From Bacillota bacterium (lineage in GTDB: Bacteria; Bacillota; Dethiobacteria; DTU022; UBA8154), in the NCBI GenBank assembly GCA_012798755.1, contig JAAZMP010000009.1:1-64000 (forward strand): a stretch of DNA of 64,000 nt. The letters run 5' to 3'. Position 1 is the first letter of the stretch; each line of letters opens with the position of its first letter. The notes under the pieces were generated by a model. It searched no databases. It saw nothing but the letters and a program-made list of their open reading frames with translations, and was not told the DNA's origin. A program made the position numbers and the translations under genes. Positions 5,514-58,881 of this stretch are shown here, one piece after another.

Positions 5514-7241
5514 TTAAGGAATATATACTATATCCCCCGGATAAATAAGATCGGGGTTTTTAATTTGTGGGTTAGCCCGGATAAGTGCCTCCAAAGAAAC
5601 ACCGAAACGCTTGGCAATGAGATAGAGCGTATCGCCTTTTTGCACGGTTACTTGGCGTACCGGCGGCCTGGGATGTGCCGGCGCCAGCGGAATAAAGACA
5701 ACATCCCCTGGGAAAATAAGATCGGGGTTTTTGATTTGCGGGTTAGCCCGGATAAGTGCCTCCAAAGAAACACCGAAACGCTTGGCAATGAGATAGAGCG
5801 TATCACCTTTTTGTACAATATACTTTTTTCCTACCGGCGGCTTGGGCGGTTTCGGCGGGAACGGCGGTTTCGGTGGTTTGGGCGGCTTTGGCGGGAACGG
5901 TGGTTTAGGTGGCCGGGCCGCTTTTTTTACATCCACAACTACTTCCATCTGCACGGTCCGCGTCACTTTGACAAAAATCTCCAGGATCGCTGTTTGATCA
6001 ATCTTTTTGCCTTTAAGCCTGTGCATGATATCACCAACGAGGCGCGCTCGCACCTGCGCATTCATTCCCGGCCGTGCCCCGTGTGCTGCCTTGACTACAC
6101 GGAAAGGAACATCTTCCCGGTAATGGCGCAACAAGTCACCGGCTTCGTCTACAAAAAAGATTTGTTTGTGCAGTATGCCTTTTACCATTACCTGATCTTT
6201 ACGGACTTCGGCCTCCAAACCAACAACTTCGGCAACAATTTCCAAAATCTTTGTCGGTTTTTGGGGTAGATTCGCTGTCGCACGTATTGTTTCCTGCTGT
6301 AACACATCCACCACTACGCTTTCGACTTTCAAAAGCCTTCTGATAACCTTTATGCCGGGGCCTTTCGCATCCACTACAACTTTCAATTGTAATGTTTCTG
6401 TTACTTTGACAAAGGCTTCCACTACCAGCGTTTGCCTTAACTTTTTCCCGGGTGTTCTGTGCAGTTCAAAATCTTCCATCGCAACACTTACATCTACCTG
6501 AGCATCCATACCGTGCCTGGCACCGGGAATATCCACGGTCCTGGTAAAAGAAATATCTTCTGAAGCATGGCGAACAAGATCGCCTTCGTCCACAAGGAAA
6601 ACCTGCTTGTGGATCGTTCCCCGCACAATGACGGTATCATCACGTACCTCGGTTGTTACATCCCGAACTGAAGGTATGACCCGAAAAATTTTTTTGGCTG
6701 TAATCGGCAAAATCGCTGTCGGTGTTAATGTAAAATATTGGGTATCTTCACCAACCACGCTGTCAACTTTTAATAGCTCTTTTTTGACGGTGATCCCCGG
6801 GCCTTTGATATCTGTAACTATTTCTATTTGTTCTGTAATGGTAACTTTGACAAAAAACTCCAAAACCGCTGTTTGCTTCAGCCGGTTTCTTTTCAACTCT
6901 GTATCGACTGTTAGCACACGAATGTTTACCTGCGCATTCATATCGCGCGAGACACCGCGAACGCCTATAAATTCCTCAAAAGGAATGTCTTCGGGCACAT
7001 GGCGGACCACATCCCCGTGATCAACCACAAAAAGCTGTTTGTGGAGGACCCCGGATACTACAACACCGTCTTCTTTTGCCTTCGATTTTACATCTGTAAC
7101 ACTGGCAATAACTTCATAAACTTTTGTGGCCTTAAACGGCAGGTCAATTTCTTCTTCTATAGTTCTGCTTACCGTAGTTTCACCGATAACTTTTTCCACT
7201 TTAAGCAGATGTCGATCTACAATCAAACCTTTAGACAACAA
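5514..7241 (-). CDS. SPOCS (DUF3794) x3 + proline-rich linker + LysM x2 protein, SipL-like spore-associated
   Basis: Three repeats of the type KxFxVxxxVxDVxxxxxDxxVxVxGxLHKQxFxVDxGDLxRH; (PPKPPFPPKPPKPP)n; two near-identical LysM VQKGDTLYLIAKRFGVSLEALIRANPQIKNPDLI. Confidence 0.85.
   Translation of the reverse strand: MLSKGLIVDRHLLKVEKVIGETTVSRTIEEEIDLPFKATKVYEVIASVTDVKSKAKEDGVVVSGVLHKQLFVVDHGDVVRHVPEDIPFEEFIGVRGVSRDMNAQVNIRVLTVDTELKRNRLKQTAVLEFFVKVTITEQIEIVTDIKGPGITVKKELLKVDSVVGEDTQYFTLTPTAILPITAKKIFRVIPSVRDVTTEVRDDTVIVRGTIHKQVFLVDEGDLVRHASEDISFTRTVDIPGARHGMDAQVDVSVAMEDFELHRTPGKKLRQTLVVEAFVKVTETLQLKVVVDAKGPGIKVIRRLLKVESVVVDVLQQETIRATANLPQKPTKILEIVAEVVGLEAEVRKDQVMVKGILHKQIFFVDEAGDLLRHYREDVPFRVVKAAHGARPGMNAQVRARLVGDIMHRLKGKKIDQTAILEIFVKVTRTVQMEVVVDVKKAARPPKPPFPPKPPKPPKPPFPPKPPKPPVGKKYIVQKGDTLYLIAKRFGVSLEALIRANPQIKNPDLIFPGDVVFIPLAPAHPRPPVRQVTVQKGDTLYLIAKRFGVSLEALIRANPQIKNPDLIYPGDIVYIP
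5535..5645 (-). repeat. 111-bp intragenic LysM-coding duplication, copy A
   Basis: Near identical to 5706-5816. Confidence 0.9.
5706..5816 (-). repeat. 111-bp intragenic LysM-coding duplication, copy B
   Basis: Near identical to 5535-5645. Confidence 0.9.
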
Positions 7242-53211: not shown

Positions 53212-53904
53212 TTAATTAAAGCGCTGTACTGCCTTAAGCAAAAATTCCAGCAGAAAAAAGCGGTATGAGGGTTCTTTAGAGCTATCTTTATCTGTTTTCT
53301 GTTTAGCCATTTCCTTTTTTTCTTCCGTGGAAAAGCTGGTTTCTTCTTCATCAGGCACCTCTGGGATGACATTAAAACAAAGGGGCGGAAACAACACACA
53401 CCACCAATTTTCACCATTTCCATCACCGATAATTATATACAGCGCCTCATATTTTCCGGGCGGAAAAAATTTACCTCCGTAGAAGCGTGCCGGGAAAGTG
53501 CTTTTTTCCAGCAAAACCTTCACATCTTCCGCAACACCTTTTTCTTTGAGAGTATTGCGGACCATGGCCTCCAGATTTTTTTGATCTTTGGAAAGCATCC
53601 CTTTAAGTTCTTGTTTATTGCAGCAACCGTTCCAGCGCGAACCATATAAGCATATCGTTTTTTGGGCCAGGTGGTTTTTAACTTCGATATCTTCAGGTCT
53701 GTTGCTATGAGCCTTGACGTGAAAACGAATAATGTTTTCCGGAGAAACCACCTCATATTGTTCGCCCAGCATCAAGTCCAAAGGCCCCGGCTTTCCCCAT
53801 AAATCAGATCCAGCAAGTAAAAACAGCCAGACGGAACAAATGTAACAAAATAAGCAGAGCAGTGCCCTAATCCTTTTAGTGGTACTATTATTTGCAGATT
53901 TCAT
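53212..53904 (-). CDS. spoIIR: stage II sporulation protein R
   Basis: IIRFHVKAHSNRPEDIEVKNHLAQ...PARFYGGKFFPPGKYEALYIIIGDGNGENWWCVLFPPLCF; start trimmed. Confidence 0.94.
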   Translation of the reverse strand: MKSANNSTTKRIRALLCLFCYICSVWLFLLAGSDLWGKPGPLDLMLGEQYEVVSPENIIRFHVKAHSNRPEDIEVKNHLAQKTICLYGSRWNGCCNKQELKGMLSKDQKNLEAMVRNTLKEKGVAEDVKVLLEKSTFPARFYGGKFFPPGKYEALYIIIGDGNGENWWCVLFPPLCFNVIPEVPDEEETSFSTEEKKEMAKQKTDKDSSKEPSYRFFLLEFLLKAVQRFN

Positions 53905-54751
53905 TTTTTTTGGGAGCACCCCCCGGGCCTTGTTTTCCTTCCGCAAGTTGTTCAGTAGCCGAAGCAAGTTGGCCCCGGTAAAATTTGCGGATAAAGCGTA
54001 AAGCCGCCTTCTCAATCCTGGATATCTGCGCCTGGGAAATGCCCACTTTTTGTGCTACTTCTATCTGGGTCCTCCCCTGAAAAAAACGGGCCACAAGGAT
54101 ATACTTCTCCCTGGGGCTTAATTTTTCCAAAGCCTCTTTAAGCGCAATGGTTTCCAGCCATTTTTCGTCTTCGTTCTGTTCATCTTGCAAAAGATCAACT
54201 ATATGCAACGGATCCGTGCTGTCATTAAAAACAGGTTCAAAAAATGAAATTGGCTCCATGCAGGCATTATGGGCCATGACGATCTCCTCCGGCGTAAACC
54301 CTGTTTCTGCAGCAATCTCACTTAAAGTAGGTTCTTTATGATTTTTTTGCAGAAAATTGCTCCTTGCGCCCTGGATCCTTTGGGCCTTTGTCTTTAAGGA
54401 ACGGCTGATATGAATATAGTTATTGTCCCTGAGATAGCGTCTTATTTCTCCAAGAATCATGGGGACAGCATAGGTGGAAAAATTGACTCCCCGTTCCAAT
54501 TGGAAATTATCTATGGCCTTCATCAACCCAATACACCCAATTTGAAAAAGGTCGTCCATGTTTTCGCCGCGATTAGCAAAATTTTTGAGAACGCTTAACA
54601 CTAGCTTTAGGTTGCCGCTGATGAGCTCCTCCCTTACCTCTGTTTCACCTTCTTGCATGCGCCGGAACAGTTCCTTCATTTTTTCCCAAGGTATTGTGGG
54701 GAGCTCATAAGTATTTACACCGCTGACTTTGACTTTTTTATAGTTATACAT
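53888..54751 (-). CDS. sigG: RNA polymerase sporulation sigma factor SigG
   Basis: VKVSGVNTYELPTIPWEKMKELFRRMQ, NRGENMDDLFQIGCIGLMKAIDNF, STYAVPMILGEIRRYLRDN, SQAQISRIEK. Confidence 0.94.
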   Translation of the reverse strand: MYNYKKVKVSGVNTYELPTIPWEKMKELFRRMQEGETEVREELISGNLKLVLSVLKNFANRGENMDDLFQIGCIGLMKAIDNFQLERGVNFSTYAVPMILGEIRRYLRDNNYIHISRSLKTKAQRIQGARSNFLQKNHKEPTLSEIAAETGFTPEEIVMAHNACMEPISFFEPVFNDSTDPLHIVDLLQDEQNEDEKWLETIALKEALEKLSPREKYILVARFFQGRTQIEVAQKVGISQAQISRIEKAALRFIRKFYRGQLASATEQLAEGKQGPGGAPKKNEICK

Positions 54752-54853
54752 AAGTCCTTTCCCCCTGAAAATGTGTCTTTCCTATAGTATGAGCTATATT
54801 TCCATTTTTTAGACATTACGGCGGAAAATAATTGGGAATGTAGTATAATGGAG

Positions 54854-55090
54854 GTGATGCAGCATTTTGCTGGAGGCAAAAGCGGGGAAGTTCAGCTTGG
54901 AAAGTTCTACGACTCACTGGGAGCTTGCGATGACCTGCCCGGCCAAATGCCCGTCCATGGGCATAGGCCGGCTGACGGCGTCCGGCCGTCAGGAACATCT
55001 CCAGCCCCCATATCGTCGTGAACTTGCCGCCAAGCCTCACGACCCGTTTTGACTACAGCAAAATGCTGCCTGCACGGATCGGTAGCGGGG
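54854..55090 (+). repeat. ~215-bp palindromic MITE-like repeat, copy 1
   Basis: Ends GCAGCATTTTGCTGGAGGCAAAA ... TTTTGACTACAGCAAAATGCTGC (inverted terminal repeats); core hairpin CTGACGGC-GTCCG-GCCGTCAG. Confidence 0.9.
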
Positions 55091-55163
55091 GGAGGCAAAA
55101 CGGAAATTCTGATGGAGCAGGGTTGTAAGCTGTATTGTATACAGGCAATTACAGCTTCCTAAA

Positions 55164-55381
55164 TGGAGGCAAAAGCGGGAGGTTCAGCTTGGAAAGTTCT
55201 ACGACTCCCTGGAACCTTGCGATGAACTGCCCGGCCAAATGCCCGTCCATGGGCATAGGCCGGCTGACGGCGTCCGGCCGTCAGGAACATCTCCAGCCCC
55301 CATATCGTCGTGAACTTGCCGCCAAGCCTCACAACCCGTTTTGACTACAGCAAAATGCTGCCTGCACGGATCGGTAGCGGG
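55164..55381 (+). repeat. palindromic MITE-like repeat, copy 2 (left tip truncated)
   Basis: Nearly identical to copy 1 from TGGAGGCAAAAGCGGG through CACGGATCGGTAGCGGG. Confidence 0.9.
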
Positions 55382-55423
55382 AAAAAACAAAACGAAAAAC
55401 CCTGATGGAGGGGGTTACCAGGG

Positions 55424-56302
55424 ATGGGTGTCAGCATTGAACAAGTTTTACAGGGGGGCACTTCTTTTTTGAAACAAAAAGGTCTTCGCTTTCCACGCCA
55501 GGAAGCTGAGATATTGTTGGCCTTTCTTCTAGGCAGGGAAAGACCGTATTTATACGCCCATGGGGAAGAAAAAGTTGCCCCGGAACTGGAAAAGACGTAC
55601 AAAAAAATACTGCAGCGCAGAGGCGCAAGAATACCCTTGGCTTATATTACTGGGAAAAAAGAATTTATGGGGCTTGGCTTTTCCGTTAACAAAAATGTGC
55701 TCATCCCTCGTCCAGAGACGGAACACCTCGTAGAGGCTGTAATTGCCTGGGGTAAGAAATTTTATGCACAATCAGAACAAAAAGAAACCCTGAAAATTTT
55801 GGATCTGGGTACCGGCTGCGGAAACATTGCCGTTGCCCTGGCCCATTACCTGCCCTTTTCTTTTGTAACAGGAGTGGATTTAAAAAAAGAAGCCGTGGAA
55901 CTGGCTTGTCAAAACGCCCAAAATGTAGGGGTTAACAAACGCACCCGGTTCCTATGCGGTGATTTCTGGGAACCTCTTGTCCCCGGGGAAGATACATTCA
56001 ATGTCATTGTTTCCAACCCGCCCTACATTCCACGGGAAGAATTATTTACACTTTCCCCTGAAGTACAAAATGAACCCCGCCTGGCCCTGGACGGTGGCCC
56101 CGATGGACTTACGGCCTACAGGCATATATTTGATAATGTACAAAAATTCCTGACCTGTCCGGGGCTTCTGGCGGTGGAAATTGGCGACAAACAAGCTAAA
56201 AACATCTGGGAAATGAGCAGCAGACTTGCATTTTTGCGGAATATCGAAATTATAAAAGATTACGCGGGAATAAGCCGTGTGATCTCAGGCAGTACCATTT
56301 AA
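55424..56302 (+). CDS. prmC: peptide chain release factor N5-glutamine methyltransferase
   Basis: ILDLGTGCGNIAVALA, VSNPPYIPREE (NPPY), GGPDGLTAYRHI. Confidence 0.96.
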   Translation: MGVSIEQVLQGGTSFLKQKGLRFPRQEAEILLAFLLGRERPYLYAHGEEKVAPELEKTYKKILQRRGARIPLAYITGKKEFMGLGFSVNKNVLIPRPETEHLVEAVIAWGKKFYAQSEQKETLKILDLGTGCGNIAVALAHYLPFSFVTGVDLKKEAVELACQNAQNVGVNKRTRFLCGDFWEPLVPGEDTFNVIVSNPPYIPREELFTLSPEVQNEPRLALDGGPDGLTAYRHIFDNVQKFLTCPGLLAVEIGDKQAKNIWEMSSRLAFLRNIEIIKDYAGISRVISGSTI

Positions 56303-56438
56303 AAATCCCCAGAAAAATAGCATGCTGCTTTTTCGGCAACTTGTTAAAAGCTGTGCCTAATGATTGAAACCAGCATCCGTTTTGCCGGGAGGGTAAGATG
56401 TTTATAAGAAAAATTGGTTAAAAATAGGGAGGTACTAC

Positions 56439-57038
56439 ATGGTAGGCAATATTTTGGCCATTTCCTCCAGCCCCCGCAAAAACGGCAACAGCGAACTGTT
56501 GCTGCAGTCATTTAACCGGGGCGTGCAAAAAGGAGGGGAAAATGTTGAGATTGTACGAATCTGCAACCTTGGGTATGGCCCCTGCAAGGCCTGTGATCAG
56601 TGTGCGGCTACCGGAGAATGCATTTTGCAGGATGACATGCGCAGTATTTACCCGCTGGTTGCTTCTGCCAAGGCCATGGTTATCGCTACACCGATTTATT
56701 TTGGCAGCCTGTCTGCGCAGCTAAAAATGTTTATTGATCGTTTTCAATGCTGGTGGTATGCTAAATACAGGCTGGGTAAACCCCAGGTAAAACCTGGAGA
56801 AGAAAGACCGGGTTTTTTTATTTCCGTGGGTGCTTTAAAAAATGAGGAACATGCAAAAAATGCTTTATCAATAGCTAAAATTTATTTTCGATCCATTAAT
56901 TATCGCTATGCCGGTTCCCTTTGCTGCTCCGGCATAGATGAAAAAGCTGCGGTTAAGAAGCATCCGGACCAATTACAAAATGCTTATATCGCCGGCCGGA
57001 ATTTTGCCGAAACCATAAAACAGGCCGGAACATCATAA
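56439..57038 (+). CDS. flavodoxin-fold NAD(P)H-dependent reductase / iron-sulfur flavoprotein family
   Basis: ILAISSSPRKNGNSELLLQSF, CKACDQCAATGECILQDDM, ATPIYFGSLSAQLKMFIDR. Confidence 0.93.
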   Translation: MVGNILAISSSPRKNGNSELLLQSFNRGVQKGGENVEIVRICNLGYGPCKACDQCAATGECILQDDMRSIYPLVASAKAMVIATPIYFGSLSAQLKMFIDRFQCWWYAKYRLGKPQVKPGEERPGFFISVGALKNEEHAKNALSIAKIYFRSINYRYAGSLCCSGIDEKAAVKKHPDQLQNAYIAGRNFAETIKQAGTS

Positions 57039-57111
57039 AAGTTGCAAACAAACCTTGTTTTCCAAAGAACTGCTCCCGGCATTGTGGAATTATTAATGGC
57101 TTTTGTTCCGG

Positions 57112-57531
57112 CTAAGATAAAAATTTTCCGGTGGAGGTTATAGTTAATTTTCCGTGTTTTACACCCTTAACACTGATGATATGTTCCGCCAGTTCGTGCA
57201 CCTCTTTTGCTGTTCCCTTTACAGCCAACACTTCCAAACAGTTTTCGTGATCAAGGTGCACGTGCATTGTGGAAAGGATTAAATCATGGCAATCATGCTG
57301 CAGCTCCAGCAATACTTCGCTTAACCCCCTGACGTGGTGGTCATAGACAAGCGTTACCGTTCCGGCCACTTCTTGATCATCTCTTTCCCACTGCATTTCT
57401 ACCAGTTCATTGCGAATTAAATCGCGGATTGCCTCTGAGCGGTTTTGATATCCTTTTTGTGCAATAAGTTTATCAAATGCTTCCAGCAGGCCTTCGCTGA
57501 TGGAAACCCCAAAGCGAACCAATTGCGACAT
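57112..57531 (-). CDS. nikR: nickel-responsive regulator NikR
   Basis: RHH N-terminus [35 protein letters not shown]; metal site [28 protein letters not shown]. Confidence 0.95.
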
Positions 57532-57548
57532 ATAATCCCTCCTTCAAG

Positions 57549-57807
57549 TAGAACTTCCCAAGCTGAACCCCCTCGCTACCGATCCGTGCAGGCAGCATTT
57601 TGCTGTAGGCAAAACGGGTTGTGAGGCTTGGAAGCAAGTTCACGACGATATGGGGGCTGGAGATGTCCCTGACGGCCGGACGCCGTCAGCCGGCCTATGC
57701 CCATGGACGGGCATTTGGCCGGGCAGGTCATCGCAAGCTCCCAGGGAGTCGTAGAACTTCCCAAGCTGAACCTCCCGCTTTTGCCTCCAGCAAAATGCTG
57801 CATCACC
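57549..57807 (-). repeat. palindromic MITE-like repeat, copy 3 (inverted) plus fragment of a second unit
   Basis: Reverse complement matches copies 1/2; the GTTCAGCTTGGGAAGTTCTAC segment recurs at 57549-57569. Confidence 0.9.
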
Positions 57808-57813
57808 CCAGGT

Positions 57814-58881
57814 CTATTTAGCCGCCTTAAGCTGCTCAGCCCGGTCAAAAGTTACCAAGGCTTCAATAACCTGATCCAATTCCCCATCCAAAACTTGATC
57901 CAGCTTATGCAGTGTTAAATTGATCCGGTGATCGGTAACCCTGTTTTGCGGAAAATTGTACGTGCGGATACGCTCGCTGCGATCACCGGATCCGATCTGG
58001 CTGCGCCTCTTTTGTGCCTGTTCCTCTTGTTGCTCCGAAGTAATTTTATCCAGAAGCCGTGCCCGGAGAACCCTCATTGCTTTTTCCCGGTTTTTCAACT
58101 GGGATTTTTCGTCTTGGCAGGAAACGACAGTATTTGACGGAACATGCGTAACACGTACAGCTGACTGTGTAGTGTTGACACTTTGTCCCCCGGGCCCCGT
58201 GGAACAAAAAGTATCTATCCTTAAATCTTGGGGATTGATCTTCAGTTCTATCTCATCGGCCTCCGGCAAAACAGCCACCGTGGCAGCCGATGTATGGATC
58301 CGCCCGCTCGACTCGGTGGTAGGAATCCTTTGCACGCGGTGTACCCCTTTTTCAAATTTCAACTGGCTGTAGGCGCCGCGGCCTTTCACGGAAAATACTA
58401 TCTCCTTAAAACCTCCGATATCCGTAGGGCTGGAACTTAAAATTTCCGTACCCCATTGTTTCTTTTCTGCATAACGCAGGTACATGCGCAACAAATCAGA
58501 GGCAAAAAGTGCCGCTTCGTCCCCGCCGGTTCCGGCCCGAAGTTCTATAATCACATCTTTTTCATCATTGGGATCTTTTGGTATCAGCAGTACTTTTAAA
58601 TTTTCTTCCAGTTGTTCTTTGCGGGAATCTAAACCGGCAATTTCTTCTTTGAGGAAAAGGATCATTTCTTCTTCCGGTTTTTCCCGCAGCATTTCTTTCG
58701 CGTCCATGATTTCTTTCTCTATTTTTTGTAGTTCGCGAAAATTTTCTATGATTTCCATGAGATCAGCATGTTCTCGGGTATATTTCAGCCATTGTTGCTG
58801 ATCCTTGATTATCTCCGGATCGCTTAAATTTTCCTCCAGAAACAGGAAATGCTCCTCTAACGCTTTTAGTTTTTCCCTCAT
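57814..58881 (-). CDS. prfA: peptide chain release factor 1
   Basis: [42 protein letters not shown] (GGQ); start trimmed. Confidence 0.98.

Follow-up and report, generated by a model that had tools for sequence, protein, structure and literature searches.

In an uncultured Dethiobacter-like bacterium, a block of about 2.4 kb that carries nikR and prmC has been flipped as a unit between sigG and prfA. Comparison with the corresponding loci of 25 relatives confirmed, at the level of sequence, that the block is inverted and that the inversion is derived in this lineage. The best explanation, which we consider probable, is that the block was flipped when copies of a palindromic repeat lying in inverted orientation underwent ectopic homologous recombination. 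The locus lies in a stretch of 64,000 nucleotides (the window) on contig C220 of a metagenome-derived assembly of 2.33 Mb in 225 contigs; the features discussed below are listed in Table 1.

Evidence for the inversion came from tblastn, which was used to locate the window proteins around prmC in 25 relatives from the same genus, family and order. The order in the window genome (G000), sigG(-) prmC(+) flavoprotein(+) nikR(-) prfA(-), is unique in this comparison. In all 25 relatives prmC adjoins prfA, downstream of it and on the same strand, although for one of them (G003) adjacency could only be inferred because prfA and prmC are on separate contigs, each ending inside a repeat; in another (G004) the locus was read across two overlapping contig ends. 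On its other flank, prmC is met by a convergent nikR in 22 of the 25, and in those 22 nikR is divergent from sigG wherever sigG is present. No nikR was found near prmC by tblastn at the prmC loci of the remaining three. The genes farther out keep their order in the window and the relatives (glyA-rpiB-ywlE-tsaC on the left, DUF1385-rpmE-M23-rho on the right), indicating that only the nikR-prmC block moved. A sequence-only reading of the same DNA had proposed that reversing the interval between two repeat copies would return prmC to prfA. The prfA-prmC order of all 25 relatives agrees with this proposal, and 22 of them have nikR at the place and in the orientation to which the reversal would return it. 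The separation of prmC from prfA that it described was likewise borne out, and nikR now stands where prmC used to be. It was mistaken in stating that prmC alone faces the other way, since nikR flipped together with prmC.

The direction of the change follows from the phylogeny. In a nine-protein tree, the window genome branches first in its genus, outside the other four members, with 98% bootstrap support. The old order is common to relatives inside and outside the genus and the window genome is basal, which makes the ancestral state unambiguous and assigns the inversion to the window lineage. A prmC already divergent in relatives lacking the repeat would have spoken against the sequence-only reading; in three same-genus genomes (G001, G002 and G004) the repeat is absent at both sites, and all three have the ancestral orientation. 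In Bacillus subtilis, prfA, prmC and ywkF are co-transcribed, and altered PrmC expression affects fitness (PMC8073009). The ancestral order in the relatives resembles this operon in that prmC lies directly 3' of prfA, whereas in the window prmC is outside the prfA unit and nikR has taken its place.

The names given earlier to prmC, prfA, nikR, sigG and spoIIR proved correct when compared with NCBIfam models. The PrmC and NikR proteins pass their models, SigG passes NF006071 while failing the TIGR cut-off, and SpoIIR falls below its cut-off yet is collinear. The excess divergence of prmC and nikR from outgroups is no greater in the window genome than that of neighbouring genes. Loss or decay of prmC was ruled out, as the gene is intact and not accelerated. 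The flavoprotein gene is absent from the locus in all relatives examined, and its best relatives (61-63%) are found in genomes of the same order. Given that it is present at this locus only in the window genome, it is a lineage-specific addition inside the block.

Table 1. Features at the inverted block and at the matching sites in G003. Positions refer to the window unless a locus is named.
Feature	Position	Strand	Remarks
sigG	53888..54751	-	fixed left flank of the inversion; PRK08215 above cut-off; place and strand as in relatives
TATAAT, old nikR -10 box	54844..54849	+	conserved from the ancestral sigG-nikR spacer; now points towards prmC
repeat copy 1	54853..55092	+	5' end complete; a diverged 3' tail reaches about 55123
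spacer between copies 1 and 2	55125..55163	+	55142-55158 matches prmC-internal 55733-55749 in reverse complement (16 of 17 positions)
repeat copy 2	55164..55381	+	lacks about 12 nt at the 5' end; related to copy 1 in tandem (period 292)
prmC	55424..56302	+	intact, 292 aa; opposite in orientation to prmC of all relatives
flavoprotein, NADPH-dependent FMN reductase-like	56439..57038	+	between prmC and nikR
nikR	57112..57531	-	intact, 139 aa; flipped together with prmC; now follows prfA on its strand
copy remnant, 25 nt	57548..57572	-	internal positions of a further copy; adjoins the nikR ribosome-binding site
repeat copy 3	57574..57807	-	complete 5' end; right inversion junction
prfA	57814..58881	-	fixed right flank of the inversion
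G003 repeats	L071 (reverse complement 2198-2563); L161 1-520		both breakpoint intergenic regions

The breakpoints are the sigG-nikR and prmC-prfA intergenic regions, and both coincide exactly with inverted copies of the repeat. Copies 1 and 2 lie beside sigG on the left; on the right are copy 3, which fills the gap between prfA and nikR, and the remnant next to nikR. Consistent with the sequence-only reading, copies 2 and 3 bracket prmC, the flavoprotein gene and nikR, forming 216-nt arms (55164-55379 and 57574-57789) that are 96% complementary and 2194 nt apart. The boundaries given there held for copy 2 and not for the left edge of copy 3, outside which the remnant is a separate piece. Copy 1 (54885-55092) is likewise 96% complementary to copy 3 (57569-57776), over 208 nt, and these two share an extra, exact 5' end of 34 nt (54853-54886 and 57774-57807) that copy 2 is without. 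Pairwise identity among the three copies is 94-96%, as compared with at most 80% to any other copy in the genome, and the longest exact run is 106 nt between copies 1 and 2, 77 nt between copies 1 and 3, and 59 nt between copies 2 and 3. With the covariance model used to find copies, three of the seven detected in the 2.33-Mb assembly fall within a span of 2.95 kb, a clustering with a probability of about 1e-4 for seven random places. Copies 1 and 2 are strongly folding, copy 2 with a z-score of about -3.5.

Some smaller features accompany these copies. The 3' flank of copy 1 was considered as a duplicated prmC leader, an idea that was dropped given that a related 3' tail is present in other family members. 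The inverted match between the spacer and the interior of prmC may be a templated insertion or may be due to chance. Elsewhere in the window there is a direct repeat of two 128-nt copies (5518-5645 and 5689-5816), 91% identical with a spacing of 171.

The upstream sequences show what stayed in place. The sigG-side block of the ancestral sigG-nikR spacer, TAGTATGAGC...TTTAGACATTA...TATAAT, remains on the sigG side in the window, where the conserved spacer TAGTATGAGC...TTTTTTAGACATTA...TATAAT ends three bases before copy 1. The -35 (TTAGAC) and the extended -10 TG of same-genus relatives are not kept, and a consensus scan found no sigma-70 promoter upstream of prmC. The retained TATAAT is a candidate that may serve as the -10 for prmC, which is preceded by about 570 nt including the two strongly folding copies. 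Neighbours and upstream regions have thus been swapped, with prmC behind the old nikR -10 box and nikR behind prfA. Both proteins are intact, pass their models and lack excess divergence, suggesting that the inversion re-routed the expression of the two genes and did not abolish it.

The repeat belongs to a genus-level family that is undescribed in the literature and databases searched. An alignment of 21 copies folds into a stem carrying two hairpins, in which 12 of 35 pairs have compensatory changes and 96% of cells pair. These values exceeded those of all 500 shuffles and were far above slid controls; the shuffles are a lenient control for copies that are related, and the structure was derived from the same alignment. 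The covariance model detected 7 copies in the window genome, at least 11 in G001, at least 84 in G002, at least 102 in G003 and at least 20 in G004, and in the rest of the family fewer copies or none in most genomes; not every candidate was scored, so all of these counts are lower bounds. Terminal inverted repeats (GCAGC...GCTGC) occur in copies from G002 and the window, and the family combines them with many similar non-coding copies, two of the features by which MITEs are recognized. A search of the 46-64 kb stretch against Rfam 15 gave no match, with a single sub-threshold and unrelated hit, and the repeat matched nothing in a plasmid collection. Elements of the REP/RAYT type are associated with a Y1 transposase (PF01797). 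Among these incomplete genomes, matches to this transposase were not seen to track copy number: none was found in G002, one partial match in G003 and six in G004 (20 copies). An origin of the repeat as a REP/RAYT element is therefore unsupported.

The proposed sequence of events starts from an ancestral arrangement sigG(-) nikR(+) prmC(-) prfA(-), in which the block would have been bounded by inverted palindromic repeats of about 240 nt. Crossover of a left copy (1 or 2, beside sigG) with the right copy (3, beside prfA) would have inverted the block. prmC would thereby have left the prfA transcription unit and come to lie behind the old nikR -10 box and a folding leader of about 570 nt, while nikR would have taken the former place of prmC behind prfA. 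Homologous recombination would explain where the repeats lie, why they face each other and why the block was reversed so cleanly, and repeats as mediators of the inversion are the best explanation of what is seen. The sequence-only reading had also invoked recombination, between copies 2 and 3. The inversion itself stands and we infer a causal role for the repeats, but copy 3 need not have recombined with copy 2, since copies 1 and 3 share the complete 5' end and a longer exact run than copies 2 and 3. As the left partner, copy 1 or its precursor is no less likely than copy 2. The sole well-polarised shared site, among few that could be polarised with outgroup copies, unites copies 1 and 2, in keeping with a tandem duplication on the left side. 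The informative sites of copies 1-3, too few of them polarised, show no clear crossover mosaic, and no genome among those compared has the repeat subfamily of the window at both sites together with the old orientation.

G003, the nearest genome to the window by prmC identity, combines the old gene order with related repeats at the two breakpoints, inverted as they are in the window. At first sight it resembles a pre-inversion state, but it does not establish the order of events: its sister G004 lacks both insertions, the two breakpoint copies of G003 are not each other's nearest copies, and the window genome is basal in the nine-protein tree. The two breakpoint copies of G003 are 86% alike, each is closer to other copies in G003, and they belong to another subfamily than those of the window. 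These repeats are most likely independent insertions, which a genome with more than 100 copies would favour. G003 shows that both sites accept such repeats and that possessing them does not in itself force inversion. The G003 prfA-prmC gap contains two different palindromic repeat types, and G004 has a short repeat-like insertion between nikR and prmC at overlapping contig ends (L072, end of C59; L162 1-107, start of C16).

Other explanations have to be weighed against recombination between repeats. If the inverted copies flipped the block repeatedly, prmC and nikR would alternate behind prfA within the population. The repeats retained at both junctions are long enough for recombination of the RecA type, with 77 nt of exact identity, and the similarity among the three copies far exceeds that of any other copies in the genome, as repeated exchange or conversion would give. 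Set against this, there is no recombinase gene among the named neighbours, prmC is relevant to growth with no evident benefit from switching, 24 of the 25 relatives give no sign of a flippable arrangement, and G003, with inverted repeats at these sites, is unflipped. A reversible switch is therefore improbable, and a slow form independent of a recombinase, with prmC and nikR trading places behind prfA in part of the population, slightly more so; if real, it would tie release-factor methylation in those cells to what was once the promoter of a nickel regulator. Invertons are phase-variable segments flipped by site-specific recombinases at short inverted repeats. The window resembles them in having a segment between inverted repeats and a promoter-like sequence outside, but its repeats exceed 200 nt, in contrast to short recombinase sites, and no invertase is adjacent. 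Neither short sites nor a nearby invertase were found at this locus, and the surrounding block is a conserved housekeeping set. The inverted state is most likely fixed.

The block may instead have turned by double-strand break repair or replication template switching, with the repeats created by the event or inserted after it. The tandem of copies 1 and 2, the remnant at nikR and the spacer-prmC match resemble a complex replication-based rearrangement, and repeats probably entered both G003 sites independently. However, copies 1 and 3 share their outer ends, occupy the two breakpoints and are oriented as recombination would require, and later insertion at both sites, inverted, from a family of only seven detected copies would be an extra coincidence. 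Such a route seems unlikely, about as much so as a reversible switch. In a metagenome assembly, a misjoin or a mixed population may also underlie the window locus. A false join across the repeats that reversed the block could be suspected in an assembly of this fragmentation, in which two related copies elsewhere lie at contig ends. The exact shared runs are nevertheless short (at most 106 nt), and the assembler resolved the 292-bp tandem that holds the longest of them, making this the least probable account. Homologous recombination between the repeats remains the preferred reading.

Events of this kind are well known and ordinary, and the present case is a clean, new example. In Wolbachia, inversions have arisen by ectopic recombination between the terminal inverted repeats of insertion sequences (PMC3004938). 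There too, inverted repeat copies bound the flipped segment and a simple inversion results, whereas the window repeats are short palindromic intergenic elements for which no transposase was identified, and the segment includes two housekeeping genes. In Atlantic cod, tandem MITE copies lie at inversion breakpoints (PMC12368964); as in the window, the inverted form has palindromic elements of high similarity arranged in tandem at its breakpoints. The cod case is eukaryotic, large-scale and hAT-derived, as opposed to 2.4 kb in a bacterium with no parent transposon known.

The locus offers a natural and well-polarised case in which small palindromic repeats break the otherwise invariant prfA-prmC pair with both genes spared, and in which a single inversion exchanged both the neighbours and the upstream regions of two genes. 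The repeat family, with its covarying structure and 7 to more than 100 copies across one genus, is an uncharacterised driver of genome change. PrmC activates translation release factors, and RF1 is one of its substrates. The case makes tolerance of uncoupling PrmC from its substrate RF1 testable.
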